From positions 17,620,121 to 17,684,120 of the forward strand of contig CM039506.1 of assembly GCA_022432975.1 (NCBI GenBank): a stretch of DNA of 64,000 bases. The letters are read 5' to 3'. The notes under the pieces were generated by a model that worked only from the letters and a program-made list of their open reading frames with translations, did no database searches and was not told where the DNA came from. The position numbers were made by a program, and so were the translations under genes. The DNA comes from Begonia masoniana. Its lineage: Eukaryota; Streptophyta; Magnoliopsida; Cucurbitales; Begoniaceae. Position 1 is the first letter of the stretch; the number at the start of each line of letters is the position of its first letter. Positions 16,536-64,000 of this stretch are shown one piece after another.

Positions 16536-17204
16536 ACATTTGAGTATGACAAACAGCCTCAACCCCCCATCAGAGAAGCCAAAGCTTGGTTGCAGGTTGC
16601 ATTAGCAGTTGTCTTAGTTTCTTGCTTATACTTATTTTATGAGTACTTTCCGGGACTAGTACAATGTATCAGCAAAACGTCACTTTTGTTATAATTGAAA
16701 AATCCCGGAAAAAACTAAGGGAAATTACCAAAAACAACCACAAAGTATCGATTTTTTTCAATTCCAACCACGAAGTATTAATTTTAACAATTTAAACCAC
16801 GACGTATCGAAAAAGTGCCAAAAACGACCACGCCGGACGGACGCAAAAAACCGCCGTCCGTCCGGGTCACTGTTCATGTGAACAGTGCGGACGGACGGTA
16901 AAAATACCGTCCGTCCGGGTCACTGTTGACGTGAACAGTGACCTTTTTACGTTCGTTTTTCTCCGTTTTATAAATTAATTTTTAAAAAATACTAAACGAT
17001 ATTAGATTTAGTTAAAATTTTTATCACATATTCCCAAAGTTATGAGAAGATAATTGGAAAAGTTTCGTGATTTTACAATACTTATATGATTTATTATAAT
17101 TTGTTTACGTATGTTTTATAAAATAAATATCTAAAATTATAATAAATCGTACAAGTGTTAGCAAACCACGAAAATTTTAAATTTGTTTTTTCTCCGTTTT
17201 ATAA

Positions 17205-19442
17205 ATTAATTTTTAAAAAATAGTAAACGATATTGGATTTAGTTAAAATTTTTATCATATATTCACCACGTTATGAGAAGATAATCTGAAACATTTCGTG
17301 ATTTTCTAACACTTGTACGATTTATTATAATTTTAGTTATTTATTTTATAAAACATATGTAAAACAATTATAATAAATCATATAAGTATTTTAAAATCAC
17401 GAAACTTTTCCGATTATCTTCTCATATTGTTGGAAATATGTGATAAAAATTTTAACTAAATCCAATATCGTTTAGTATTTTTTAAAATTAATTTATAAAA
17501 CGGAGAAAAACGAACGTAAAAAGGTCACTGTTCACGTGAACAGTGACCCGGACGGACGGCGGTTTTTTGCGTCCGTCCGGCGTGGTCGTTTTTGGCACTT
17601 TTTCGATACGTCGTGGTTTAAATTGTTAAAAATAATACTTTGTGGTTGGAATTGAAAAAAACCGATACTTTGTGGTTGTTTTTGGTAATTTTCCTAAATT
17701 GAAATACCTCTGGTCGATCTCATACAATGGTGTATTTCAGAGAGAGACGCTTAGCTAAGAGGACCTCTCTATGTAGGTTTTTTTTGATATCTATATTCTT
17801 CCATCAAGAAAATAATAAAGAAACTAAGTGGGAAGTTTCTTTCGTCGAAACTATCAAAAAAACCTGACCAAATGTGTAATAAACTAGACTATCAATGGAA
17901 AAACCAGATTAAAAGACAGTTATTGTCAAACTGTCTGCAACAACTTCTCTATGGAAGATTAGATTTAGTGTTATATTTACCTCAAATTTCTTTAGAAGAA
18001 GATATAAGGGAGGTCAAGAAAATGATTATTGACCGTGAACAGTACCATTTAATTTGTTTTTTTTGCTGTTTTATAAATTAATTTTTAAAAATAGTAAACG
18101 ATATTGGATTTAGTTAAATTTTTATCATATATTCACCACGTTATGAGAAGATAATCTGAAACATTTCGTGATTTTCTAACACTTGTACGATTTATTATAA
18201 TTTTAGTTATTTATTTTATAAAACATATGTAAAACAATTATAATAAATCATATAAGTATTTTAAAATCACGAAACTTTTCCGATTATCTTCTCATAACGT
18301 TGGAAATATGTGATAAAAATTTTAACTAAATCCAATATCGTTTAGTATTTTTTTAAAATTAATTTATAAAACGGAGAAAAACGAACGTAAAAAGGTCACT
18401 GTTCACGTGAACAGTGACCCGGACGGACGGCGGTTTTTTGCGTCCGTCCGGCGTGGTCGTTTTTGGCACTTTTTCGATACGTCGTGGTTTAAATTGTTAA
18501 AAATAATACTTTGTGGTTGGAATTGAAAAAAACCGATACTTTGTGGTTGTTTTTGGTAATTTTCCTAAATTGAAATACCTCTGGTCGATCTCATACAATG
18601 GTGTATTTTCAGAGAGAGACGCTTAGCTAAGAGGACCTCTCTATGTAGGTTTTTTTTTATATCTATATTCTTCCATCAAGAAAATAAATAAAGAAATTAA
18701 GTGGGAAGTTTCTTTCGTCGAAACTATCAAAAAAACCTGACCAAATGTGTAATAAACTAGACTATCAATGGAAAAACCAGATTAAAAGACAGTTATTGTC
18801 AAACTGTCTGCAACAACTTCTCTATGGAAGATTAGATTTAGTGTTATATTTACCTCAAATTTCTTTAGAAGAAGATATAAGGGAGGTCAAAGAAAATGAT
18901 TATTGACCGTGAACAGTACCCATTTAATTTTTTTTTTTTTGCTGTTTTATAAATTAATTTTTAAAAAATAGTAAACGATATTGGATTTAGTTAACATTTT
19001 TATCACATATTCACCACGTTATGAGAAGATAATCTAAAACTTTCGTGATTTTCTAACACTTGTACGATTTATTATAATTTTAGTTATTTATTTTATAAAA
19101 CATACATAAAAACATTATAATAAATCATATAAGTATTTTAAAATCACGAAACTTTTCCGATTATCTTCTCATAACGTTGAAAATATGTGATAAAAATTTT
19201 AACTAAATCCAATATCATTTATTATTTTTTAAAATTTAATTTATAAAACGGAGAAAAACGAACGTAAAAAGGTCACTGTTCACGTGAACAGTGACCCGGA
19301 CAGACGGCGGTTTTTTGCGTCCGTCCGGTGTGGTCGTTTTTGGAACTTTTTCGATACGTCGTGGTTTAAATTGTTAAAAATAATACTTCGTGGTTGGAAT
19401 TGAAAAAAACCGATACTTTATGGTTGTTTTTGGTAATTTTCC
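17205..19442. repeat. 871-bp tandem repeat inside the Mutator-like element, about 2.5 copies
   Basis: The landmark GAAATACCTCTGG occurs at 17701 and 18572, spacing 871. Each unit joins about 490 bp of right-TIR sequence with about 370 bp of unrelated sequence (17696-18065; 18567-18925). The third copy ends at the element terminus after the TIR part. Confidence 0.85.
17872..18081 (+). other. Possible captured sequence with short open frame
   Basis: The non-TIR portion of the 871-bp unit contains an open stretch of 69 codons (including LLYGRLDLVLYLPQISLEED). The second copy (18743-18930) has an extra base in GGTCAAAGAAAATG that breaks the frame. I do not recognise the protein. It may be a host fragment captured by the element or just a chance frame. 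Confidence 0.3.
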
Positions 19443-19562
19443 AAAAACTAATAAGAAACACATATTTAAGTGAAATTTTTTAACCATTTAAAAATCATAA
19501 GTGGAAAAGAAAAACTTCACGGACAAAAATTGAAGTACAAAATAATTTTACAATTCAATTAT

Positions 19563-22962: not shown

Positions 22963-23896
22963 TGTAACGCCCCGAACCCGCCCCGGCTCGGTGCGCTACG
23001 TTTGCAAACCGATCCCGCGTTTAAAATATAATTTAAAACTAATTTTAGTAAATTTTTACAACTCGTTTTCGGATTTTTCGAACCCTCGAAATTTATTGGA
23101 AAACGGACCCAAAATACGTTTAAAATACATCAAAGAAATGTCGGGTCAAAACATTTTAGAAATAGGAAAAATTTGAAAAAAAATGAAAAACAGGCTCAAA
23201 GGGCGCTGGGCGCGCGCTGGGCCCGCGCTGGGCGCGCGCTGCGCGCTGGGGCGCGCCTGTGCGCCCCACCGCGACCGCTCGTGGTCCGAGGCCCGACCGA
23301 TCGGGCCTCCTCGGGTTTTCTCGACCCAAAACACATAAAAACCTTCTATTTTGACCCCTTTTGACCTTTCCCTACTTTTCCTCATATTTCTCCACCCCGA
23401 ACACCTCCAAAATTCACGAAACTTTAACCATACCTCCCCGACACTCGAACCTTCAATTCTCGTAAAAATTTTAGAAAACCGACTTCAACCGAATATAAAT
23501 AAAATAGCGACCTTAAACCCGACGTCGTTTGTTTTAAAATCAATATGGACGGCATAACGCCTAAATCCTTTAAAACCAAAACCTGCAATATAAAACCCGA
23601 GAATATATAGTTTAAATCCTCAAAATACCACCACCATTACTCAACAACCCAACGACTCGAAATCTTTAAAAATTCATTACGAAAACCTTTATAAAAACAA
23701 CGTGCCGACACATATCAAATCTCCCAGTCACCAACTAGATATATCAAAAATACCAAAATAATAATCATCACTCACAACCCTCCGAAGACCATGATCGAGA
23801 CGCCCCGACAACTGCCTGCACCTGCATGCCCTGTACATCACCAACTGCGCTCCCATTCTAGCTTCCTTAGACCCTCACCTGTACTTTTGTCTACAC

Positions 23897-24687
23897 CTAC
23901 ACCACGGAACACAAAACATCAGCCTAATGCTTAGTAAGTAGGGAAATATGCATACAACAAACATAATGCAACACAACCCCTAACAGATGAAGTTTCTACT
24001 CGCTCAGTTGCTGTTCTTTCGTTTGCTACTCGTTGTTCATTCACAGAACCGAAGCTCATCACACATGCTAACATCGCACCTTAACGCGACTGGGCAACTC
24101 ACACAGAGTCCCTCGCAGGTGTCCAACTCACACAAAGTCCCTCGCAAGTGCCACCCTAACGCGACTGGGCAACTCACACAGAGTCCCTCGCAGGTGTCCA
24201 ACTCACACAGAGTCCCTCGCAAGTGCCACCCTAACGCGACTGGGCAACTCACACAGAGTCCCTCGCAGGTGTCCAACTCACACAGAGTCCCTCACAAGTG
24301 CCACCCTAACGCGACTTGGCAACTCACACAGAGTCCCTCACAGGTGTCACTCTAACGCGACTGGGCGACTCTACTACAGTCCTTCGCAGGTACCACCTTA
24401 ACGCGACGTGACAACTCCCATGGAGTTACCCGTAGGTGCTACCCTAACGCGACTAGGCAACTCCAACACAAACCATCTTACGACTCAACTCACACCATCC
24501 ATTACGGTTCAAGCTCACCATGCAAAACCCTGCTTAAAACTCGTTTGTCGTAGTTTGAAAACCGTGATGCATGTCACACAAAAACTCAACACAAATCCAA
24601 ACAAAACAACCAAACAAAGCAAACAACCAATTCCCTACCGTTCCATGGTGTAGGCCCGAAGGCAAACAACACACATCCGCTACTTAC
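23897..24687 (-). other. Putative LTR intron, family D
   Basis: Minus-strand donor ATCCAG|GTAAGTAGCGG at 24687; acceptor GTGGTGTAG ends at 23897. CCTACACCATGGAAC (24654-24640) can pair with GTTCCGTGGTGTAGG (23910-23896) with one G-U pair. The equivalent in the partner LTR is 30239-31029. Splicing is inferred from motifs only. Confidence 0.45.
24078..24420. repeat. Tandem array, about 75-bp unit (ACGCGACTGGGCAACTCACA type)
   Basis: Each unit contains two related halves (CAACTCACACAGAGTCCCTC then GCAGGTG or GCAAGTG). About four to five units, degenerating to the right. The homologous array in the partner LTR is at 30420-30700. It lies within the putative LTR intron. Confidence 0.8.
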
Positions 24688-25359
24688 CTGGATTCCTTGT
24701 GCGTGCTCGTAATTATATGCCCAGTTAGCCAAATCGTTCACTCGTCAATCTAACATAATAAAAGAGAAATCACTTAGCAATACACTAACCATAGGTTTTA
24801 ACCAACTTTTCAACCTAACATACAAAACCTAAAATTCCTAGATTTTCTATCGTCCAACCAAATTACTCGCTCGATTACCTAAATAACGAAAACGCAATTT
24901 AGAACTTTACTAATGAACTCAAAAGCAATTATTAACCTAAACTAACTAAAACTATCACACAATCCCTTCCTCAAAACACAAAACCCAAATTGTGCACCAT
25001 TTTGACTGTCAAACTTCAAACGGTCGTAACTCCCTCGTTTTTCAACGGATTTCGATGTGCCACCCCAATCTGTAAACCTCTACACGTCTACTATCCATTG
25101 AAACACTCAAATTATCCAAACAAACAACTTGGATCAACCGAAATAACCAAAACAGATTCGGCCAACTTTCTCCCAAAAACCGGTTTTCACACACTTAACT
25201 CCAATCTTCAATCTAACCCTAAAATCAACCTAAACCAATCCATCTAACAATTAAATCCTCAAATCTAGAAAGAAAACGAACCCCTAAACTCAATTTTTCG
25301 GAGTGCTCCCTTTAGGGTTTTCAAACCCTCACCAAAACCACTCAAAACCCTACTAAAAC

Positions 25360-25945
25360 TGTAACGACCGCCCAGCTGTACGTTGCTGGCACGTCATCCC
25401 GTTCTAGATCTCACCATACGCGGGGTCAAGTCGTGCAGGTCCCACCGATGGGCTAGCTGCCACGTGTGTCCCCTCAGGGCCGTCCACGTGTACTCACGAT
25501 CTTCCCTCTCCCTGCAGAGGGTTTTTGCCTTCTGCCCCACTCGAACCCAGTACCTCAGGGACTAGTACCTAGGCTACAAGTGAGGAGTACCACTTGAGTT
25601 AGTAGCGCTACGGCACCGGATCCCATCAGAACTCCGAAGTTAAACGTACTTCGGCGAGAGTAGTACCAGGTTGGGTGACCAACTGGGAAGTCCTCCTGTG
25701 CACTAGCTCAAGTGGTACTCCTCACTTGTAGCCTAGGTACTAGTCCCTGAGGTACTGGGTTTGAGTGAGGGAGAAGGCAAAAACCCTCTGCAGGGAGAGG
25801 GAAGATCGTGAGTACACGTGGACGGCCCTGAGGGGACACACGTGGCAGCTAGCCCATCGGTGGGACCTGCACGACTTGACCCCGCGTATGGTGAGATCTA
25901 GAACGGGGTGACGTGCCAGCAACGTACAGCTGGGCGGTCGTTACA
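25360..25945. mobile_element. Palindromic 5S/tRNA-like element with TG...CA ends
   Basis: The element begins TGTAACGACCGCCC and ends GGGCGGTCGTTACA, flanked by AAAAC (25355-25359 and 25946-25950). The sister LTR has the empty site with a single AAAAC (31694-31702 region). The left arm (25360-25603) and right arm (25703-25945) are inverted copies with about five differences in 244 bp. The 100-bp centre is 5S rRNA-like. On each arm, reading outward from the centre, there is a tRNA-like box A (TAGCTCAAGTGG at right) and a box B-like GGGTTYGAGTG. The 5S part shares changes with the Cassandra copies at 63129-63943. A 5-bp duplication and TG/CA ends imply retroviral-type integration. Confidence 0.85.
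25598..25712 (+). ncRNA. 5S rRNA-derived core of the palindromic element
   Basis: The order of 5S landmarks is kept: CACCGGATCCCATCAGAACT, CCGAAGTTAAACGTACTTCG (box A region), GCGAGAGTAGTACCAGG, TTGGGTGACC (intermediate element region) and GGGAAGTCCTC (box C region). The ends diverge from a real 5S gene and there is no T-run terminator after it. It is a transposon-borne relic, possibly with pol III promoter function. Confidence 0.8.
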
Positions 25946-26259
25946 AAAACACCAATAATCACTACCTATATGCATACTACATGAAACCCATTCAAAAGCA
26001 TACCTCAATCTTGGAGAAAAATGAAGAACAAGAGGAGGGAGAACTCCTTCCTTGCTAGCCCATCGGTGGGACCTGCACGACTTGACCCCGCGTATGGTGA
26101 GATCTAGAACGGGGTGACGTGCCAGCAACGTACAGCTGGGCGGTCGTTACAAAAACACCAATAATCACTACCTATATGCATACTACATGAAACCCATTCA
26201 AAAGCATACCTCAATCTTGGAGAAAAATGAAGAACAAGAGGAGGGAGAACTCCTTCCTT
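25848..26259. repeat. 206-bp tandem duplication across the palindrome edge
   Basis: 25848-26053 is repeated at 26054-26259. The unit includes the last 98 bp of the palindromic element, its right target duplication and 108 bp of LTR sequence. It therefore arose after the insertion. Confidence 0.9.
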
Positions 26260-26812
26260 GCTGCTGCAAAAGTCGTGGAAAAAGGGTGAAGAAGAAGACA
26301 ACCCTTTTTTCCCCTTTTTATTTCTTTAATTTTTTTATAAAATTACCATTAAGCCCACCCTTGTCTTCCTTTGATTTTCCACGTGGAAGACACCAATAAT
26401 GACCATCTTTAATCACTTTCTCCCATTTCCATTTCTATTGGTTAATGACTTTGACTTTTCTACAAAATTCCTATTGGTTAAATTTGCACACACTTAACTT
26501 TTCAAACCCTTTTCTTTATGCATTTAATAACCTTGTACACTTACATTTAAACCCTCATTTCCTCACTCCTTAGCAACCAACGTAACCCATCCTTTTTCAT
26601 TCACTTTTGACTACATTGTGATTGGTTGAAAGAAGTGGACTTTTCAACTCAAAATTATCCACCAATCTCATTTGAGTTTGACTTGTCAAACTCTCCACTT
26701 CTCATTTCTCTTCTAATACACTTCAATGGGCAATCCTAATCTCGAATACCTAAACCCTCATGCTTGACCTAAACTAGGCTACATACGCTCTGGGAAAATT
26801 TCGGGTGTTACA

Positions 26813-28154
26813 ATCCCCCCTCCTTACAAAAATTTTATCCTCAAAATTTGTGGTACCTTAATAATCCTTCAACTTACTCTCTCTAAACTATCATCCTATC
26901 TTTGCACGTTCGAACTTTACATCTTATAGCTCGACTACATATACATACTACCAATGATGACTAAATTTAAGCACTCATCATTTCTACTCATGACTCCTCT
27001 GTCGTGAATTAATTTCTCATTTCATACTTCCCTATCTCTGAAATATTTGCATAAATTACTTGACCCTCCAAGGCTAACGCTACCTCCATAGCACAAAACT
27101 AAGAACATAATAAACAATCATCGTACTCTAACTCCTAAATTTCAATTTTCTTCTACTCTAACATTTCATTCCTAATTTATCGCTCCCTAACATCTCACAC
27201 CTAATTACCTCAAACAATCACGATATGTCAGTGGTCATTCAAATACCATTCTCCAACTCCCGGTCATCATCAAACGCTATCAACGTTTTACATCTACGTT
27301 ATCTCGATCCTCTCTCTCTTCGTCCCACAACCTAACCTTAACTTGTATAAAATTTTCAAATTTTATCCCATGTCTAAGTTTCCATATCTACGCCTTCATA
27401 ACTCTCTCTCAATTTCAACTTACTTCTAAGTTTACTTGTATGAACTCTCCTTCGTTCTTCATCCATATCTTTTAAATTCCTCAATCCGCTTCACACTAAT
27501 TGCATTTTCCTTCTATTCTATTCTCTTTTGACTTCAAGTTTCCTTTCTACTCAATTACCATCATTACTTACTTGTCACTTTCCTATCACTCTCATCTCTT
27601 ATCATTTCCCCAAAATCATAACACAACACAACTCTCACATCATTGAACTTAATCACTAAACTTAATCTATCTAACCAATACTTCAGTCATCACCAAACAC
27701 TCACGATTTATTTACGTCTAAACTAACTCTTTCATACTATTAACCCAATATTTTAAATGGCGTACCACCCCTTTAATTTCAACTCCAAAATTTTATATTA
27801 AAACTTCCATCACTCTTCGTTAAGAATGAACTAATCTCTTTTTTTTTTTTTCATCCAACATTCAGTAGCTAACCTAGCAACTCTTAACTTACATTCTAAC
27901 TTACATTCATTACTACTCGAGTTCTAGCTTACATTCTATTCTTAAGCTTCTCCACTCTTAAACGTATTAATTCCTTCCTAAGCTATCCATAAAATCAATG
28001 GTTTCGATCTCGTTACGTAAGAGTCAAATCTCCGAACCTTTCTAACTTAACCTTATCATTAACAAATGGTTTCACTACTTTTTTTTCCTAAGACGGTACC
28101 CAATTCTCTAAAGATCAACTATCTTTATTCAACTTATTTTACCTTTTGGCTGGT
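26813..28154 (-). mobile_element. Non-coding 3' internal region of family D
   Basis: On the minus strand this lies between the gag stop and the LTR. It ends with TTTTGAGGATAAAATTTTTG, then AAGGAGGGGGGAT as polypurine tract. No protease, reverse transcriptase or integrase motif is visible. Strongly pyrimidine-rich on the plus strand. Confidence 0.7.
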
Positions 28155-29183
28155 TCATGTAGCTGGTCCTTTCTTTGCTACGGGGCAGTCTGTAGCTATA
28201 TGACCGGGTTGATTACACTTAAAGCATCTAGTAGCTTGGGGCGTCGGACAATCTCTAGAGATGTGGCCAGCTTCGAAACAATTGTAGCACTTCCCTGAAT
28301 ACTGTCCACACTTCTCCGGATGGACTTTCAGGCATTTGGGACATTGGGGGTATCCTCGCTTCTTCAATTGTTTTGGCTTCTTTCCTTTTCTCTGTTCATT
28401 CAAAAGTTCTCCCGGCCTTTTCATCCCCTGAAGCTGTGAAGAAGATCCATCACCGTCCATCTGAGTTGTAATTCCCGTGAATACTTGACCCAGAACTTCT
28501 GCCGGTCTAATCACTTTACCAGCAGCTTCCTCTACCTCTATGGCCTTGGCCACCACTCGAGAAAATGGTATTCCTTCCACTCCGAATGTCTTTACCAGCA
28601 CCTCAATTTCTGGCCTCAAGCCCTGCACAAATTGAAATATTTTGTCGTCTTCTCGACTAACTAGGTGGTTGGCAAATCGGGACAACGATTCAAACTGCTG
28701 AATATACTCCCCAACCGATCCTGTTTGCTTTAATGCCATGAATTCTTTACGCTTAGCAGCTTGGACTTTCTTGTTGTAATACTTGTCGAAAAACAACTCC
28801 TTGAACTCTTCCCATGTCATAACATGAATATCTGTGGTAGCCTTCATCGTCTCCCACCAGCTTTGGGCATCGGTAGAAAGGTGGAATGTTGCACACTTCA
28901 CCTTATTTGTTTCCTCTACCTCAGCGACATTAAACATATTCTCGATGGTGCATATCCAACTCTCGGCAGTTATCGGATCTGTCAAACGGCCTTCAAATGC
29001 CGGAGGCTTCAATCCCCGAAATCTCTCTCCGCTAGAACTTATTCCCCGATTTATCATAACCCCAAACATTTCAGCTTGCCTCCCAACCATCTCTGCAAGC
29101 TGCCTTACTGACTCCTCCAATGGGTTTCTAAGTGGTTCCGGTTCATTTCTAGGTCGTTCGGGTTGTCTTGGGTTCCTCGGCAT
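28155..29183 (-). CDS. Intact Gag of a gag-only LTR element (family D)
   Basis: 342 codons uninterrupted, ATG at 29183 just after a leader-intron acceptor (TTGTACAG at 29196). Residues about 55-225 match the plant Ty3/gypsy capsid domain ([51 protein letters not shown]). A basic linker follows, then two CCHC knuckles: CYNCFEAGHISRDC (C299, C302, H307, C312) and CFKCNQPGHIATDC (C320, C323, H328, C333). The frame stops right after the second knuckle and no pol follows. This is the layout of TR-GAG type non-autonomous elements. Gag would form particles and package RNA; enzymes must come in trans, perhaps from an element like the one at 35237. Confidence 0.9.
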   Translation of the reverse strand: MPRNPRQPERPRNEPEPLRNPLEESVRQLAEMVGRQAEMFGVMINRGISSSGERFRGLKPPAFEGRLTDPITAESWICTIENMFNVAEVEETNKVKCATFHLSTDAQSWWETMKATTDIHVMTWEEFKELFFDKYYNKKVQAAKRKEFMALKQTGSVGEYIQQFESLSRFANHLVSREDDKIFQFVQGLRPEIEVLVKTFGVEGIPFSRVVAKAIEVEEAAGKVIRPAEVLGQVFTGITTQMDGDGSSSQLQGMKRPGELLNEQRKGKKPKQLKKRGYPQCPKCLKVHPEKCGQYSGKCYNCFEAGHISRDCPTPQATRCFKCNQPGHIATDCPVAKKGPAT

Positions 29184-29195
29184 TTAGTTCTAAAC

Positions 29196-29258
29196 CTGTA
29201 CAAGATTAAAACAATCTAATCTTAGTTATAAACTAACTAAAGTTAAAGAAATACTTAC
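29196..29258 (-). other. Putative leader intron between PBS and gag, family D
   Basis: Minus strand: donor CGACT|GTAAGTAT at 29258, acceptor TCTTGTACAG ending at 29196, 12 nt before the gag ATG. 63 nt is short but feasible for plants. Family A (54284-54347) and the Tekay-like element (39734-39793) have the same arrangement. Confidence 0.45.
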
Positions 29259-29326
29259 AGTCGGTGAAGCACATTGCATGGTGGCCGGCATTGTCGGGTA
29301 ATCCTTTGAACGAATCGACCATTTTT

Positions 29327-29338
29327 CTCTGATACCAT
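29327..29338 (-). other. Primer-binding site, initiator tRNA-Met type
   Basis: GATGGTATCAGAG on the minus strand, two bases inside the LTR end at 29341. Confidence 0.8.
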
Positions 29339-29340
29339 CT

Positions 29341-32300
29341 TGTAATGCCCCGAACCCGCCCCGGCTCGGTGCGCTACGTTTGCAAACCGATCCCGCGTTT
29401 AAAATATCATTTAAAACTAATTTTAGTAAATTTTTACAACTTGTTTTCGGGTTTTTCGAACCCTCAAAATTTATTGGAAAACGGGCCCAAAATACGTTTA
29501 AAATACGTCAAAGAAATGTGGGCCAAAACATTTTAGAAATAGGGAAAATTTGAAAAAAAATGAAAAACGGGCTCAAAGGGGTGCTGGGCGCGCGCGCCTG
29601 TGCGCCCCACCGCGACCGTTCGCAGTCCGAAGCCCGACCGATCGGGCCTCCTCGGGTTTTCTCGACCCAAAACGCATAAAAACCTTCTATTTTGACCCCT
29701 TTTGACCTTTCCCCACTTTTCCTCATATTTCTCCACCCCGAACACCTCCAAAATTCACGAAACTTTAACCATACCTCCCCGACACTCGAACCTTCAATTC
29801 CCGTAAAAATTTTAGAAAACCGACTTCAACCAAATATAAATAAAAATAGCGAACTTAAACCCGACGTCGTTTGTTTTAAAATCAATATGGACGGCATAAC
29901 GCCTAAATCCTTTAAAACCAAAACCTGCAATATAAAACCCGAGAATATATAGTTTAAATCCTCAAAATACCACCACCATTACTCAACAACCCAACGACTC
30001 GAAATCTTTAAAAATTCATTACGAAAACCTTTATAAAAACCACGTGCCGACACGTATCAAATCTCCCAGTCACCAACTAGATATATCAAAAATACCAAAA
30101 TAATAATCATCACTCACAACCCTCCGAAGACCATGATCGAGACGCCCCGACAACTGCCTGCACCGGCATGCCCTGCACATCACCAACTGCGCTCCCATCC
30201 TAGCTTCCTTAGGCCCTCACCTGTACTTTCGTCTACACCTACACCACGGAACACAAAACATCAGCCTAATGCTTAGTAAGTAGGGAAATATGCATAAAAC
30301 AAACATAATGCAACACAACCCCTAACAGATGAGGTTTCTACTCGCTCAGTTGCTGTTCTTTCGTTTGCTACTCGTTGTTCATTCACAGAACCGAAGCTCA
30401 TCACACATGCTAACATCGCACCTTAACGCGACTGGGCAACTCACACAGAGTCCCTCGCAGGTGTCCAACTCACACAAAGTCCCTCGCAAGTGCCACCCTA
30501 ACGCGACTGGGCAACTCACACAGAGTCCCTCGCAGGTGTCCAACTCACACAGAGTCCTTCGCAAGTGTCACCCTAATGCGACTAGGCAACTCACACAGAG
30601 TCCCTCGCAGGTGTCCAACTCACACAGAGTCCCTCGCAAGTGCAAACCCTAACGCGACTGCAACTCACACAGAGTCCCTCGCAGGTGTCACTCTAACGCG
30701 ACTGGGCGACTCTACTACAGTCCCTCGTAGGTACAACCTTAACGCGACGTGACAACTCCCATGGAGTTACCCGCAGGTGCTACCCTAACGCGACTAGGCG
30801 ACTCCAACACAAACCATCTTACGACTCAACTCACACCATCCATTACGGTTCAAGCTTACCATGCAAAACCATGCTTAAAACTCGTTTGTCGTAGTTTGAA
30901 AACCGTGATGCATGTCACACAAAAAACTCAACACAAAACCAAACAAAACAATCAAACAAAGCAAACAACCAATTCCCTACCGTTCCATGGTGTAGGCCCA
31001 AAGGCAAACCACACACATCCGCTACTTACCTGGATTCCTTGTGCGTGCTCGTAATTATATGCCCAGTTAGCCAAATCGTTCACTCGTTAATCTAACATAA
31101 TAAAAGAGAAATCACTTAGCAATACACTAACCATAGGTTTTAACCAACTTTTCAACCTAACATACAAAACTCAAAATTCCTAGATTTTCTATCGTCCAAC
31201 CAAATTACTCGCTCGATTACCTAAATAACGAAATCGCAACTTAGAACTTTACTAATGAACTCAAAAGCAATTCTTAACCTAAACTAACTAAAACTATCAC
31301 ACAATCCCTTCCTCAAAACACAAAACCCGAATTGTGCACCATTTTGACCGTCAAACTTCAAACGGTCGTAACTCCCTCGTTTTTCAACGGATTTCGACGT
31401 GCCACCCCAATCTGTAAACCTCTACACGTCTACTATCCATTGAAACACTCAAATCAACAAAACAAACAACTTGGCTCAACCGAAATAACCAAAACAGATT
31501 CGGCCAGCTTTCTCCCCAAAACCGGTTTTCACACACTTAACTCCAATCTTCAATCTAACCCTAAAATCAACCTAAACCAATCCATCTAACAATTAAATCC
31601 TCAAATCTAGAAAGAAAACCAACCCCTAAACTCAATTTTTCGGAGTGCTCCCTTTAGGGTTTCCAAACCCTCACCAAAACCACTCAAAACCCCACTAAAA
31701 CACCAATAATCACTACCTATATGCATACTACATGAAACCCATTCAAAAGCATACCTCAATCTTGGAGAAAAGTGAAGAACAAGAGGAGGGAGAACTCCCT
31801 CCTTGCTGCTGCAAAAGTCTTGGAAAAAGGGTGAAGAAGAAGACAACCCTTTTTTCCCCTTTTTATTTCTTTAATTTTTTTGTAAAATTACCATTAAGCC
31901 CACCCTTGTCTTCCTTTGATTTCCCACGTGGAAGACACCAATAATGACCATCTTCAACCACTTTCTCCCATTTCCATTTCTATTGGTTAATGACTTTGAC
32001 TTTTCTACAAAATTCCTATTGGTTAAATTTGCACACACTTAACTTTTCAAACCCTTTTCTTTATGCATTTAATAACCTTGTACACTTACATTTAAACCCT
32101 CATTTCCTCACTCCTTAGCAACCAACGTAACCCATCCTTTTTCATTCACTTTTGACTACATTGTGATTGGTTGAAAGAAGTGGACTTTTCAACTCAAAAT
32201 TATCCACCAATCTCATTTGAGTTTGACTTGTCAAACTCTCCACTTCTCATTTCTCTTCTAATACACTTCAATGGGCAATCCTAATCTCGAATACCTAAAC

Positions 32301-32357
32301 CCTCATGCTTGACCTAAACTAGGCTACATACGCTCTGGGAAAATTTCGGGTGTTACA
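29341..32357 (-). mobile_element. Family D 5' LTR (minus strand)
   Basis: 3017 bp, from TGTAACACCCGAAATTTTCC (32357) to GGGGCATTACA (29341). It lacks the palindromic element and the GC block is shorter (29578-29612). Putative intron 30239-31029; tandem array 30420-30700. Confidence 0.85.
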
Positions 32358-32600
32358 ATCCACCCTCCTTACAAAAATTTTGTCCTCAAAATTTGTGGTA
32401 CCTTAATAATCCTTCAACTTACTCTCTCTAAACTATCATCCTATCTTTGCACGTTCGAACTTTACATCTTATAGCTCGACTACATATACATACTACCAAT
32501 GATGACTAAATTTAAGCACTCATCATTTCTACTCATGACTCCTCTGTCGTGAATTAATTTCTCATTTCATACTTCCCTATCTCTGAAATATTCGCATAAA
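32358..32600 (-). mobile_element. Second partial internal region of family D
   Basis: Nearly identical to 26813-27055 (polypurine tract, TTTTGAGGACAAAATTTT and on). So the order is LTR-internal-LTR-internal, as expected after unequal recombination between LTRs. It breaks off near 32600 into family A LTR sequence. Confidence 0.8.
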
Positions 32601-32690
32601 GTAATTAGTCTTTAAAGGTTACAGATATGGATTTAATACCGAGTCTATTCTCTCACGATTGATGAATGAATGAAAAAGGAAATGATTGGA
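32601..32690 (+). mobile_element. Family A LTR fragment, left part
   Basis: AAAGTAATTAGTCTTTAAAGG and on to GAATGAATGAAAAAGGAAATG match 11085-11165. The LTR is interrupted by the Athila-type element and resumes at 54064. Confidence 0.8.
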
Positions 32691-49616: not shown

Positions 49617-50191
49617 GGTGTAGATGATCTTGAGCAATGTGAGAATGTTGTTCTTCCATCAGAGGAACGAGTCAATTGAAGAAGAATGCCTTGGGAGTGT
49701 GCTGTGCAGTCGGTGCTAACTTTGACCCGTGGGAGTAATAGGTTAAGTATTTTAGTAGTTTGGGGTTGTGTCGGGCTGAAGGGATTATAGTATATGAATT
49801 GTATAGAACTCATTTTAGGGTGTTTGGTATCTGGATAGTGTAAGTACTGATGTTGATGAAATGGTAAATGGGTTTGATGTTTTTAATGTTTCTGGAAATT
49901 TGGTGTAACGATGCCTATTCCCAGCAAGATATTGTCCGCTTTGGGGATTGGGCCGTAGCCCAATATCCTCCCCTCACGGCTTTGTTTGGCGAGAACTTCC
50001 CGGAAGGTCACCCAACCTGGAATTGCTCTCGCCGAAGCACTTTTAACTACGGAGTTCTTATGGGATCCGTTGCCAATTGTGCTCCAAAACGCGTCTTGCT
50101 ATGTTGGGAGGGTCTCTTTACATATGTTTCATTTCCACATACTTCCCCAAGCGATGTGGGATTGTGACGACCCCTTTTTACGACCCGTCAT
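49617..50191 (+). mobile_element. Captured segment: family A LTR piece plus Cassandra LTR
   Basis: About 575 bp nearly identical to 62842-63416: the end of a family A LTR section (GGTGTAGATGATCTTGAGC) followed by a Cassandra LTR from 49904. Both edges are inside other sequences. It replaces roughly 840 bp of the Athila LTR. Short shared sequence TTTTAT is present at the left edge. Confidence 0.85.
49990..50094 (-). ncRNA. 5S rRNA-like module in captured Cassandra LTR
   Basis: The minus strand reads GGATCCCATAAGAACTCCG, then AAGTGCTTCGGCGAGAG, CCAGGTTGGGTGACC and GGGAAGTTCTC, in 5S gene order. Relic of a Cassandra-type element. Confidence 0.8.
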
Positions 50192-50261
50192 CTTCTTCTT
50201 CTTCTTCTTTTTATTTTTTTTATTTTTATTTTGCTTTATTATTATGATTTTAGGCTAGAAC

Positions 50262-53054
50262 TATAACGCCCCGAATTATATAAACTCGGTTTGTTACTCA
50301 TAAATCCGAACATAATTAAGAACTTTTGGACAAACTTTAAATTTCACACATCTGCCGGTCGCATTCACCAAAAACACTTCTACCGCTCAGGCCACGTGAT
50401 ATCCGCGTGACTTCATTAACTCGGCAAACGACGTCTACCACTCACAAATGTCACTTCTAACCGATCACAAAACGACAACATCCTCAACTCACATCTACCG
50501 ATAGAACAAACTACGTCTTCCGATCGCTAAACGACAAAAAGACTTCTTCTCACATCTTCCGATCACTAAACGACAAAAATCTTTTATTCACACACACCGT
50601 TCACAAAACGACAAAGCGACTCCTGCTCACATCTTCGATAGATTGAAAACTCTCTACATCCACCGATAGACAACATCTACCGGCAAACAGTAACACTCAA
50701 CACTCTACCGATAGACAACATCTACCGATAGACAACATCTACCGATAGACAACATCTACCGATAGACAACATCTACCGATAGACAACATCTACCGATAGA
50801 CAACATCTACCGATAGACAACATCTACCGATAGACAACATCTACCGATAGACAACATCTACCGATAGACAACATCTACCGATAGACAACATCTACCGATA
50901 GACAACATCTACCGATAGACAACATCTACCGATAGACAACATCTACCGATAGACAACATCTACCGATAGACAACATCTACCGATAGACAACATCTACCGA
51001 TAGACAACATCTACCGATAGACAACATCTACCGATAGACAACATCTACCGATAGACAACATCTACCGATAGACAACATCTACCGATAGACAACATCTACC
51101 GATAGACAACATCTACCGATAGACAACATCTACCGATAGACAACATCTACCGATAGACAACATCTACCGATAGACAACATCTACCGATAGACAACATCTA
51201 CCGCACATCTGCCGGTCGCATTCACCAAAACACTTCTACGCTCAGGCCACGTGATATCCGCGTGACTTCATTAACTCGGCAGACGACGTCTACCACTCAC
51301 AAATGGACGAAATCTACTATTCACTTCTACCGATCACAAACAGACAACATCCTCAACTAATCTACCGATAGAACCAAACTGCGTCTTCGATGCGCTAAAC
51401 GACAAAAAGACTTCTTCTCACATCTTCCGATCACTAAACGACAAAAATCTTTTATTCACACAAAGTCTTTTCCGCTAGCATCTTCCGCAGATTGAACTCT
51501 CTACATCCACCGATAGGCCCACATCTACAGGCAACAGTAACACCCAACTTCTACGATACGACAACATCTACCGATAGACCAAAAACACACTCCATCCACC
51601 GATAGACAACATCTACCGGTGAACAGTAACACTCAAATTCTACCGATAAACAACATCTACCGATATACCATAATCATCCTAAACAAAGAACAACTCCGTC
51701 TACTGAAAGAACTTGTACATTTCACTGAAACCATTCTAAACAGCTTAAATCCATTCATAACTCCATATTTAATAAAACCACTAGTAAAACCAACAGAGTA
51801 TCATTATAAAAAAAATCTCAAAATGTATTCCAAAACATTAAAAACTACTACTGTCGTATAGAAACTCAACATTCTAAAATTGAATCATTGTCAACTAAAC
51901 CTTCACACCTACTGACATCAGTTAAACCGCCTCATCAGTTTGCCAGGTCGAGGCATGAACGTGCTCCCCCAACCAGCCTAGTCCTCAATATGCTCAGAAA
52001 ACACACCTTCTGTCACTTCTTCACCTACATCACAAAATTCATCTATTAGCCTAATGCTAAATAAGTGAGGCACAATGAAATGAAATGAAATGCTGAAACA
52101 TAAATCCTAATCATGCAGTCTCTACTTTCACACACTTCAGTCGCATTTACATTCATTCACTGATCTGATCCCTCAGTTCCATTGGGAATTGGATCAGTTT
52201 TCCCAAAGTCATACATCCTCTTCATAAATTAAGGGGCGGATTAGTTCCCTTAATAGCTGATCTGATCCTAAAATTCCATTGGAAAGTGGATCAATCTTCC
52301 CAAAGTTATAAATCCCTTCATAAGTTAAGGGGCGGATTAGTTCTCTTAATAGTTTATCTGTTACAATCTGCTCATTTCTTACCATGCCATTTCGTGCAAA
52401 TTCATTTTACGCATACTTTCAAAATATGATGCATGACATACAGACACATTTCAAGCATACATAATCCTACTGTTTTGTGATGTAGGCCCGAAGGCACATG
52501 CATACTTCACTTACCTGGTTTTTTGGAAATCGCTCAGTTGTAAGCTACTTTAGAAGCTCGCTCACCTAAAGCCATAACAGTACATTAATCAAACTTTCAC
52601 TAAACTTCACCAAGAATCAATCAAAAGTTTGAGGAAACTAGTTTGAAACCCTGCTACCCGTGCATTCCCATTTATCACCAAAACCCGAACCAACTCTCAA
52701 TTACAGCATCCTCGAAATTTCTCACATCAAACTCTCTCAGTTACCTAACTGCTAAAACACAAGAAAAACGAGGGAAACCTTACCTAGGTTGAAAGAGAAT
52801 CGGGCAAGAGAATCGCCTAGAGGGTTCTGCTGGAGAGTTGAAGGCCGAAAGAGGAATGATAAACAGAATAGTGGCGGCTATAGTGCATTAAACCCAAAAC
52901 CTCTCTCCTTAAATACGTTATCCACTTTTAAATTTCCAATTACCCTTATGCCCTTGCCTAGTTATCCCTTAACCCTACTTTTATTATTGTCATTTAAAGT
53001 GTGCCATTAATTTAAAAAGAATTGAGAACTGGTTCGATGAAACCGGGTGTTACA
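50262..53054 (-). mobile_element. Solo LTR, family B, in Athila 3' LTR
   Basis: 2793 bp flanked by AGAAC (50257-50261 and 53055-53059). The unoccupied site is seen in the 5' LTR at 42775-42800. The first base pair of the end is altered (TATAACGCC in place of TGTAACGCC). Putative intron 52025-52514 with CCTACATCACAAAA and its complement. It is longer than the Tekay-like LTRs because of the array at 50703-51203. Confidence 0.92.
50703..51203. repeat. 17-bp tandem array, about 29 copies
   Basis: Unit CATCTACCGATAGACAA, perfectly repeated over about 500 bp. Single or degenerate copies lie on both sides (50640-50700, 51540-51665) and in the Tekay-like LTRs. A duplication of its flanks follows (51204-51460 resembles 50346-50600). 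Confidence 0.95.
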
Positions 53055-55403: not shown

Positions 55404-57056
55404 TATAATTAGAAACTTTCTAAAACTATAATTAAGAAACTTTCTAAAACTATAATTAAGAAACTTTCTAAAACTATAATTAAGAAACTTTCTAAAACTA
55501 TAATTAAGAAACTTTCTAAAACTATAATTAAGAAACTTTCTAAAACTATAATTAAGAAACTTTCTAAAACTATAATTAAGAAACTTTCTAAAACTATAAT
55601 TAAGAAACTTTCTAAAACTATAATTAAGAAACTTTCTAAAACTATAATTAAGAAACTTTCTAAAACTATAATTAAGAAACTTTCTAAAACTATAATTAAG
55701 AAACTTTCTAAAACTATAATTAAGAAACTTTCTAAAACTATAATTAAGAAACTTTCTAAAACTATAATTAAGAAACTTTCTAAAACTATAATTAAGAAAC
55801 TTTCTAAAACTATAATTAAGAAACTTTCTAAAACTATAATTAAGAAACTTTCTAAAACTATAATTAAGAAACTTTCTAAAACTATAATTAAGAAACTTTC
55901 TAAAACAATACTTAGGAAAACTTTCTAAAACTATAATTAAGAAACTTTCTAAAACTATAATTAAGAAACTTTCTAAAACTATAATTAAGAAACTTTCTAA
56001 AACTATAATTAAGAAACTTTCTAAAACAATACTTAGGAAAACTTTCTAAAACTATAATTAAGAAACTTTCTAAAACTATAATTAAGAAACTTTCTAAAAC
56101 TATAATTAAGAAACTTTCTAAAACTATAATTAAGAAACTTTCTAAAACTATAATTAAGAAACTTTCTAAAACTATAATTAAGAAACTTTCTAAAACTATA
56201 ATTAAGAAACTTTCTAAAACTATAATTAAGAAACTTTCTAAAACTATAATTAAGAAACTTTCTAAAACTATAATTAAGAAACTTTCTAAAACTATAATTA
56301 AGAAACTTTCTAAAACTATAATTAAGAAACTTTCTAAAACTATAATTAAGAAACTTTCTAAAACTATAATTAAGAAACTTTCTAAAACTATAATTAAGAA
56401 ACTTTCTAAAACTATAATTAAGAAACTTTCTAAAACTATAATTAAGAAACTTTCTAAAACTATAATTAAGAAACTTTCTAAAACTATAATTAAGAAACTT
56501 TCTAAAACTATAATTAAGAAACTTTCTAAAACTATAATTAAGAAACTTTCTAAAACTATAATTAAGAAACTTTCTAAAACTATAATTAAGAAACTTTCTA
56601 AAACTATAATTAAGAAACTTTCTAAAACTATAATTAAGAAACTTTCTAAAACTATAATTAAGAAACTTTCTAAAACTATAATTAAGAAACTTTCTAAAAC
56701 TATAATTAAGAAACTTTCTAAAACTATAATTAAGAAACTTTCTAAAACTATAATTAAGAAACTTTCTAAAACTATAATTAAGAAACTTTCTAAAACTATA
56801 ATTAAGAAACTTTCTAAAACAATACTTAGGAAAACTTTCTAAAACTATAATTAAGAAACTTTCTAAAACTATAATTAAGAAACTTTCTAAAACAATACTT
56901 AGGAAAACTTTACTTAGGAAAACTTTCTAAATCTATGATTAGGAAAGCTTTCTAAAACTATAATTAAGAAACTTTCTAAAACTATAATTAAGTAACTTTC
57001 TAACAATTATAATTAAGAAACTTTCTAAAACTATCTTTAAGAAACTTTCTAAAATT
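55404..57056. repeat. 24-bp minisatellite, about 68 copies with a 25-bp variant
   Basis: The consensus unit joins ACTATAATTAAG and AAACTTTCTAAA. Over 1.4 kb the units are almost identical. A variant with ACAATACTTAGGAAAACTTT occurs near 55905, 56024, 56819 and 56893. Units decay from 56920 to 57056. The homogeneity points to recent expansion; true copy number could be mis-assembled. Confidence 0.95.
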
Positions 57057-61854: not shown

Positions 61855-62848
61855 GTAAGTCTTCATGACTTTTTTGGCCGATTTGGCCTACACCATAAGA
61901 GAGTTTATTGATCAAGGAAATTGATGATGCATGTAGATTGTTAGGTATATGGTTTATGGTTATGTGGTTAGGTAGATTAGGTTACGCAATTAGTTGTTAA
62001 TAGATAGTTCTGTCTAGATAGTCATGTTATGTTTATGATTATGTTAAATCGAGGATATGTATTGTTCATGCATTCTGTTTTTATGAAAGCATAGAAAATG
62101 AATTTATGCATACGTTTTTATGTAAGAAAGATAATGAATGAAATGAAAGAAAATACCTAAGTGTAATATGTGGGTGGAAAAGGAGTATGGCCGTCCCGTA
62201 AGGTTTGGACCAATAGGTGTGCCTACTTTATTTTCTTAAAGAGCGAGTATGGCCGTCCTGTAAGGTTTAGACCAATAGGTGTGCCTACTTTATTTTCTTA
62301 AAGAGTGAGTATGGTCGTCCCGTAAGGTTTAGACCAATACGGGTGCCTACTTTATTTTCTTAAAGAGCGAGTATGGCCGTCCCGTATGGTTTGGACCAAT
62401 AGGTGTGCCTACTTTATTTTCTTAAAGAACGAGTATGGCCGTCCCGTAAGGTTTGAACCAATAGGTGTGCCTACTTTATTTTCTTAAAGAAGGAGTATCG
62501 TCGTCCCGTAAGATTTGGACCAATAGGTGTGCCTACTTTATTTTCTTAAAGAAGGAGTATCGTCGTCCCGTAAGATTTGGACCAATAGGTGTGCCTACTT
62601 TATTTTCTTAAAGAACGAGTATGGCCGTCCCGTAAGGTTTGGACCAATAGGTGTGCCTACTTTATTTTCTTAAAGAACGAGTATGGCCGTCCCGTAAGGT
62701 TTGGACCACAAGGTGTGCCTACTCCCTCTACCATTGATCACAGATAATTAAAGACAGAAAGAAACAGCATGATTTTTATGAATAGCACATACATTTTCAT
62801 TTATGAAGCTTACTGAGCCTTAGCTCATAGAATGTTTTTATGGTGTAG
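61855..62848 (+). other. Putative LTR intron, family A-like
   Basis: CTACACCATAA (61888-61898) pairs with TTATGGTGTAG (62838-62848), 11 bp. The 62-bp array lies between them. Confidence 0.4.
62183..62732. repeat. 62-bp tandem array, about nine copies
   Basis: Unit starts GAGTATGGCCGTCCCGTAAG and ends in CTACTTTATTTTCTTAAAGA. Copies start at 62183, 62245, 62307 and so on to 62679. Two units share TATCGTCGTCCCGTAAGATT, suggesting stepwise duplication. Confidence 0.95.
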
Positions 62849-63213
62849 ATGATCTTGAGCAATGTGCGAATGTTGTTCTTCCATCAGAGGAACGAGTCAA
62901 TTGAAGAAGAATGCCTTGGGAGTGTGCTGTGCAGTCGGTGCTAACTTTGACCCGTGGGAGTAATAGGTTAAGTATTTTAGTAGTTTTGGGTTGTGTCGAG
63001 CTGAAGGGATTATAGTATATGAATTGTATAGAACTCATTTTAGGGTGTTTGGTATCTGGATAGTGTAAGTACTGATGTTGATGAAATGGTAAATGGGTTT
63101 GATGTTTTTAATGTTTCTGGAAGTTTGGTGTAACGACCCCTATTCCCAGCAAGATATTGTCCGCTCTGGGGATTGGGTCACAGCCCAATATCCTCCCCTC
63201 ACGGCTTTGTTTG

Positions 63214-63312
63214 GCGAGAACTTCCCGGAAGGTCACCCAACCTGGAATTGCTCTCGCCGAAGCACTTTTAACTTCGGAGTTCTTATGGGATTGGTTGCCA
63301 ATTGTGCTCCAA
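63214..63312 (-). ncRNA. 5S rRNA-like module, Cassandra LTR 1
   Basis: Minus strand: AACTCCGAAGTTAAAAGTGC, TTCGGCGAGAG, CCAGGTTGGGTGACC, GGGAAGTTCTC. Corresponds to the box A, intermediate and box C regions of plant 5S genes with some changes. Confidence 0.85.
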
Positions 63313-63660
63313 AACGCGTCTTGCTATATTGTGAGAGTCTCTTTACATATGTCTCATTTCCACATACTTCCCCAAGCGATGTGGGATTGTGACGACCCCT
63401 TTTTACGACCCGTCACCTTCCGGTTCACCCGCGCGGACGTACCGCCATCTGGGTTCCGGTTCGTGCAGCCATCGTACCATACTTACACATCCGGGTCATC
63501 ACAATCACCCCCCCTTGGGGGCCCAACGTCTTTGTTGGCCACATTTCCGGTTGGGTACAGGCTCTGATACCATTTGTAACGACCCTATTCCCAGCAAGAT
63601 ATCGTCCGCTCTGGGGATTGGGCCGCAGCCCAATATCCTCCCCTCACGGCTTTGTTTGGC

Positions 63661-63754
63661 GAGAACTTCCGGAAGGTCACCCAACCTGGAATTGCTCTCG
63701 CCGAAGCACTTTTAACTTTGGAGTTCTTATGAGATCCGTTGCCAATTGTGCTTA
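63661..63754 (-). ncRNA. 5S rRNA-like module, Cassandra LTR 2
   Basis: As in LTR 1 but with more changes (AACTCCAAAGTTAAAAGTGC; GACCTTCCGGAAGTTCTC). Confidence 0.8.
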
Positions 63755-63943
63755 AAAATGCGTCTTGCTATGTTAGGAGGGTCTCTTTACATATGTTTCA
63801 TTTCCACATACTTCCCCAAGCGATGTGGAATTGTGACGACCCATTTTTACGACCCGTCACCTTCTGATTTGCCCGCGCGGACATACCGCCATCCGGGTTC
63901 CGGTTCGTGTAGCTATCGTACCATACTTACACATCCGGGTCAT

Positions 63944-64000
63944 GGGCCACAGCCCAATATCCTCCCCTCACGGCTTTGTTTGGCGAGAACTTCTCGGAAG
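63944..64000 (-). mobile_element. Third, partial Cassandra LTR
   Basis: After GGGTCAT (63937-63943), where LTR 2 should end with CACAATCA, the sequence jumps to GGGCCACAGCCCAATATCC, the interior of another Cassandra LTR, and continues past the window edge. Confidence 0.8.

Follow-up and report, generated by a model that had tools for sequence, protein, structure and literature searches.

Excerpts from Kojima 2024 (PMC10886601) place in the TRIMp3 group Cassandra and Ajax, with 5S sequence in the LTR, and Helenus, with tRNA-like sequence in the LTR, and they give both Helenus and Ajax a PBS and a PPT. Cassandra is the only TRIM family with 5S in the excerpts from Gao 2016 (PMC4717578), whereas those from PMC6934838 and PMC5445492 report that a hairpin or palindrome by the LTR end is suspected of acting in the priming of GalEa. 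Regarding palindromic units, no description was found in titles, abstract openings and excerpts of open-licence literature, including excerpts from the papers just cited and from PMC7215508 and PMC10853983. Here we describe a palindrome of 586 bases which is one copy of a large family of plant mobile elements, and this family has apparently not been described so far.

The palindrome lies in the window, by which we mean the whole stretch of 64,000 nucleotides that was analysed. The first-pass annotation had described a 586-bp unit with TG...CA ends, an AAAAC duplication, an empty site in the sister LTR, 244-bp arms and a 5S-like centre, and all of this was confirmed from the sequence (Table 1), as were the box A and box B forms facing outward on both arms, the left arm mirroring the right. 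There are 5 mismatches over the 244 nt of the arms, which are separated by a centre of 98 nt. Folded as RNA, the unit reaches -576 kcal/mol, against -219 +/- 6.5 in 100 shuffles, that is, around 55 standard deviations lower. A tandem duplication of 206 bp, which repeats the final 98 bp of the element together with flank, was absent from that annotation. The host of the insertion is an LTR element (22964-32606) with LTRs of about 3.3 kb, whose LTR segments are 1.2-2.7% diverged and whose frame at 28155-29183 (minus strand) has gag domains only. Elsewhere in the window there is a tandemly duplicated unit of around 0.9 kb with imperfect inverted repeats (16718-19446), and there are tandem arrays at 55404-57054 (24-bp unit), 50698-51203 (17-bp unit) and 62183-62723 (62-bp unit).

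Table 1. The palindromic copy and its insertion site; positions are those of the window.
Feature	Position	Strand	Remark
Whole palindromic unit, TGTAACGACC...GGTCGTTACA, TG...CA ends	25360-25945	.	586 bp; solo unit, without spacer, one 5-bp duplication
Left arm, 244 nt	25360-25603	+	
Right arm, 244 nt	25702-25945	+	239/244 complementary to left arm
5S-like core, 98 nt, loop of the palindrome	25604-25701	+	
Rfam 5S_rRNA match	25592-25708	+	59.5 bits, cut-off 38; first 12 nt inside left arm
Box A form TAGCTCAAGTGG, right arm, facing outward	25704-25715	+	
Box B form GGGTTTGAGTG, right arm	25757-25767	+	
Box A form TAACTCAAGTGG, left arm, facing outward	25590-25601	-	
Box B form GGGTTCGAGTG, left arm	25538-25548	-	
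A5 run (read inward, T5)	25779-25783	+	present in many relatives; mirror T5 at 25522-25526
Target-site duplication AAAAC, left	25355-25359	.	
Target-site duplication AAAAC, right	25946-25950	.	
Empty site, single AAAAC, in sister LTR	about 31697-31701	.	joined flanks of the element align there
Exact 206-bp tandem duplication, copy 1	25848-26053	.	across right end of the element
Exact 206-bp tandem duplication, copy 2	26054-26259	.	

A search of the genome (795 Mb, in which the window is C5:17620121-17684120) gave at least 177 matches, counted on both strands and with 40 of the 2165 candidate places scored; the places are fewer than 177, because a palindromic unit mostly matches on both strands. 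From this search 39 loci were fetched, the first 20 of which were chosen for their clustered units and hence are not a random sample; the clusters consist of two to five units, 13-20 bp apart. The junction between units, searched as CGTTACA-N(10-24)-TGTAACG, occurs at 457 places genome-wide and the reversed pattern, which served as a control, at 153, therefore the raw number is an overestimate. Among the first 50 junction matches listed, 45 were one palindromic spacer of 15-19 bases joining two units and 5 were other sequences. The loci of those 45 places form a second set of 39 (L048-L086), picked with the junction as sole criterion and ignoring the arms, where the delimited units are mostly 200-490 bp long and carry no 5S. 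Units within one insertion are often unlike in length and centre. Whether the unit is repeated in the genome had been left conditional in the first reading of this DNA; it is repeated, at many loci and with many different 5-bp duplications. A single-copy accident is excluded by the multiple genomic matches, and an assembly artefact as the sole cause by the many loci, the lengths and the differing duplications. Exact-pattern scans of virus and prokaryote contig collections gave 0 matches each, which is a weak test for a plant element.

Regarding the insertion sites, perfect 5-bp duplications flank 18 of the 26 5S-family insertions with TGT/ACA at both outer ends (from 39 loci), a count that comprises fewer independent insertions since L014/L037/L038 and L042/L043 share flanks. 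In the junction-picked set (39 loci, 21 delimited) the duplication is perfect in 12 of 17 insertions with such ends, and in two further ones 4 of the 5 positions are alike. Several insertions that fail the duplication test have TTTTT or AAAAA as flank, i.e. a spacer half. Usually a whole multi-unit array is bounded by one single 5-bp duplication. With these counts, the family has the TG...CA ends and the 4-6-bp duplication of a TRIM. SINEs typically have a LINE-type 3' tail and variable duplications and are not known to have TG...CA ends, and the present units, with their TG...CA ends and 5-bp duplications, do not belong among them.

In 25 of the 27 junctions caught by the pattern in the unit-search loci the spacer is AAAAAGGCGCCTTTTT or a near variant of it. 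Spacers are palindromic and 13-20 bp long, and both sides are mirror images, with symmetric variants such as ATAAAAGGCGCCTTTTAT, GAAAAAGGCGCCTTTTTC and AAAAAGACGTCTTTTT; one-sided changes fall mostly in the middle four positions and resemble CpG decay, and the A and T runs vary in length. By eye, neither a TGG-start PBS nor a purine tract adjoining TGT was seen in the listed spacers, where pyrimidines adjoin TGT. This palindromic spacer, which is invisible from the window copy alone, looks like the key part of the element, and solo units such as the window copy are probably dead ends because they lack it.

The lone spacer hairpin folds at -1.1 kcal/mol and 112 of 200 shuffles fold equally well, whereas the spacer duplex of two molecules reaches -22.1 kcal/mol. 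When the RNA of one arm is folded, a leader hairpin forms and the spacer hairpin is absent, the 3' end pairing with an internal GAAGGC. Because the lone hairpin is weak, the pairing of two molecules strong and the spacer hairpin missing from the arm fold, these models favour priming between two RNAs over priming from the own hairpin. This would also account for the units of seemingly different parents that we found within one insertion in L009 (unit 0), L073 and L081; since some insertions mix parents in this way, a cycle with a single RNA would not be sufficient by itself.

A 5S flanks the spacer on either side in 19 junctions; after removal of L045 and L046, where one 5S is that of Cassandra, the remaining 17 comprise 10 divergent (-,+), 7 in the same orientation and no convergent ones (+,-), which is the pattern that a turn of the antisense cDNA strand at the spacer would give. 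Half-spacers without their other half run into or inside box A in L048, L051, L054, L058 and L068, into the 5S core in L010 and L011, and in other cases into arm sequence. A unit with a half-spacer is fused to LTR-like ends at their first bases in L032, L035 and L036, and after three extra bases in L030; the best LTR-segment matches of the 5-kb neighbours of these four loci are to LTR regions of the window (73-91%), and two of the fused ends resemble the host LTR end TGTAACGCCCCGAACCC. We infer that these joints are template switches or cDNA end-joining within shared particles. The label Ty3 used below is based on Pfam matches of two window frames.

Regarding the promoter boxes, the loop is located at box A and is no longer than 11 nt in 13 palindromes, 9 of which, whichever way they are read, have a box A starting no more than 2 nt from the centre. 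Where the loop is at least 83 nt long and contains no 5S, box A lies 0-6 nt from the shorter-arm joint in 8 of 11 units. Exact boxes are present in some subfamilies, such as TAGCTCAAGTGG and GGTTCGAATCC in L064; the box B of the 5S family is imperfect. The arms had been interpreted as tRNA-like promoters, and a box search upholds this for part of the units: 27 of 47 (one counted twice, and some without the region) beat all 20 shuffles, but 20 do not. ARAGORN called no tRNA gene in the units and Rfam no tRNA either, therefore the boxes are promoter-like and not tRNA genes. In units whose arms are at least 90% alike, 62 arms in all, 1 has a run of four or more T when read outward and 47 have one when read inward; the respective numbers are 0 and 91 among the 92 arms of the 46 5S-family units, a tally weakened by being largely one shared A5 around 76 nt from the centre in related arms that are not independent. 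Several units score against Rfam microRNA families, all under the cut-offs of those families (the palindromic unit L084:1180-1435 has 133 bits against MIR8622, whose cut-off is 197), and such elements may be behind some annotated microRNA precursors.

The first-pass annotation had connected the element with Cassandra, through changes shared by the 5S cores and an end equal to the Cassandra LTR 3' end. However, the core of the window copy is nearer to the 5S rDNA of the same genome (87 of 104 columns alike) than to three local Cassandra copies (78-79), and of its 24 diagnostic sites 13 agree with the rDNA and 6 with Cassandra; six further cores show the same pattern. As for the shared changes, CCAGG is common to the core and Cassandra and is not in the rDNA, but TTCGGCGAGAG is present in the 5S rDNA of this genome as well. 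The end GGTCGTTACA is not specific to Cassandra, since it also occurs at 1744, 4471 and 11271, the last two lying inside the ends of a pair of repeats. The Cassandra copies of the window resemble only the 5S block (84 nt, 83-86%), the arms showing no match to them, and an origin from Cassandra was therefore rejected; regarding the Cassandra LTR with its Met PBS, no PBS was seen by eye in the spacers.

The window unit has a match of around 95% along both arms in the left unit of L084, where the 5S core is absent, which makes the 5S look like a loop cassette. Sequence comparison thus supports the view that the 5S core is an optional cassette from 5S rDNA or rRNA. Of the proposed combination of three pol III modules, the tRNA-like boxes hold in part of the units, but the 5S module is optional: among the 39 junction-picked loci, 3 (L068, L073 and L076) contain it between arms with box A and 36 lack it.

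Cassandra itself is present in the window, always on the minus strand, as a tandem array (63129-63980), with what we take to be a Met-type PBS, and as a further LTR (49904-50195). Palindromic units lie between or beside Cassandra LTRs in L016, L028, L045 and L046, and in the sequences fetched for the junction-picked loci (2.3-7.3 kb), 7 of 39 contain a Cassandra-type 5S match. At L053:3450-4375 two inverted Cassandra LTRs meet at a hairpin of the internal domain, with their 5S copies divergent, and from this pair fold-back may affect Cassandra too.

The arms were compared in the 5S family only, where removing the partial units left 46 full ones, and dropping L038 and keeping one per locus left 32, the window copy included; L014/L037 and L042/L043, which share flanks, may be single insertions. 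Arm divergence is 0.0255 within copies, and between copies it is 0.0604 for arms of the same side and 0.0603 across sides, therefore left and right arms are not separate lineages. In all 32 units the two arms differ less than the between-copy median, but only in 16 do they differ less than the unit does from its nearest copy. The element seems to rebuild one half from the other half at each jump. Variants present in at least two copies were found in both arms of one copy 214 times versus 51 expected, which would also follow if the arms were kept alike after insertion, by gene conversion between them or by selection on an RNA hairpin, and the G-U pairing still possible at 3 of the 5 arm mismatches of the window copy points the same way. 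We nevertheless regard homogenisation after insertion as quite improbable. Sibling units of one insertion (17 pairs) have arms differing by a mean of 0.028, about as much as arms within units (0.024). Furthermore, L042 and L043, likely copies of one locus, are 0.9% apart while their arms are 2.6-3.5% apart, and copies of a locus that keep diverged arms argue against ongoing conversion there. Later gene conversion was rejected on these two divergences, and copying of the arms during transposition appears to fit the sequences better.

The re-copied arms also bear on the case of an ordinary TRIM, in which the unit would be the LTR and the spacer the whole internal region, a host tRNA fragment would prime, and the palindrome would be an old accident kept by LTR-LTR copying. 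Such copying would not hold two arms inside one LTR alike, and re-copying in the 5S family is unexpected under it. The ends, the duplications and the occurrence of multi-unit arrays and solo units are those of TRIMs, but the mirror-image sides of the spacers, their lack, by eye, of a PBS or a purine tract at TGT, and the unlikeness of units sharing an insertion make this explanation unlikely. A TRIM with a PBS was rejected on the listed spacers; as for direct, near-identical LTRs, palindromic units make direct and inverted indistinct and lengths often differ within an insertion. Very improbable, in our opinion, is a DNA transposon with very long terminal inverted repeats, of a foldback or MITE-like, possibly Ginger-like, kind. 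It would explain the long inverted arms, the TGT...ACA ends and the 5-bp duplications, but units are fused through half-spacers to LTR-like ends, one duplication is common to a whole multi-unit array, and the asymmetry of T-runs and the central box A indicate RNA.

We consider it likely, then, on the sequences of this one genome, that a pol III element is mobilised by Ty3-type enzymes via snap-back reverse transcription. The complete element would be a non-autonomous retroelement of at least two palindromic TG...CA units with a short palindromic spacer of the AAAAAGGCGCCTTTTT type between them. Its central tRNA-like pol III promoter would transcribe one arm outward, giving an RNA of one arm plus spacer, because this strand has few T-runs before the spacer T5 is reached. 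With a captured 5S segment in the loop, as in the 5S subfamily, the RNA could begin a little earlier, within the opposite arm. The 3' oligo-U would then anneal to a spacer A5, either within the same hairpin or, with greater stability, on a second RNA, and would prime reverse transcription. The first DNA letters would be TGTAACG, the integration end, therefore neither a tRNA primer nor a PBS would be required. In the next step, which has support, the 3' end of the cDNA, beside box A at the RNA 5' end, would snap back and prime the second strand, so that the second arm would be a fresh copy of the first. The ends and duplications of the product are observed, and the enzyme inserting it with a 5-bp duplication would be a Ty3-type integrase acting in trans. 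That reverse transcription folded back and so produced two identical ends competent for integration had been suggested for the single window copy, and at family level this is well supported by the multiple copies, the varied 5-bp duplications, the re-copied arms of the 5S family and box A at centres and joints.

If shown, this cycle would set the family apart as a class of its own. It seems to us evenly balanced whether it is a distinct class of retroelements without tRNA primer, PBS, PPT or strand transfer, in which a single arm RNA made by pol III, priming through its palindromic 3' end on itself or on a partner and snapping back at its 5' end, would regenerate a complete palindromic DNA ready for integrase in Ty3 particles and could take up other small-RNA genes such as 5S in the loop. 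If true, this would add a third route, beside SINEs and TRIMs, by which small pol III RNAs turn into genomic parasites, and the replication plan would be very simple for an element that an LTR-type integrase inserts. The priming of small LTR elements without PBS becomes directly testable with a short RNA. Moreover, such hairpins could feed double-stranded and small interfering RNA, and such elements may confuse the annotation of 5S and microRNAs.

Compared with the known systems, the family is TRIMp3-like, as judged from sequence alone, in its ends, duplications and promoter type, the small-RNA-derived pol III promoter of the repeated unit being provided by the 5S and the tRNA-like boxes. As in the TRIMp3 elements of the excerpts cited, these are small elements with pol III promoter motifs in the repeated unit, presumed mobilisation in trans by LTR elements and 5-bp duplications (4 bp in animal Helenus); they differ in the palindromic unit, the promoter boxes standing back to back and the palindromic internal region of 13-20 bp, where no PBS or PPT was seen. 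Tf1-type self-primed LTR elements, fungal GalEa and bivalve TRIMs are likewise without recognisable tRNA PBS (PMC6934838, PMC5445492), and the sequence of our element would allow Tf1-type self-priming; however, those excerpts describe no palindromic LTR, and in our family it would be a pol III RNA whose 3' end supplies the priming palindrome. With tRNA-derived SINEs the family shares the arrangement of boxes A and B and, putatively, a short transcript of pol III size, whereas the TG...CA ends, the 5-bp duplications and the fusions with LTR-like ends set it apart. Finally, several units per insertion under one target-site duplication are also known from tandemly arrayed TRIMs (Gao 2016, PMC4717578; Kalendar 2020, PMC7215508). 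Those arrays, in the excerpts from these papers, are tandem LTR-internal-LTR, whereas the present ones include inversion, with the 5S cores divergent in 10 of the 10 inverted junctions.
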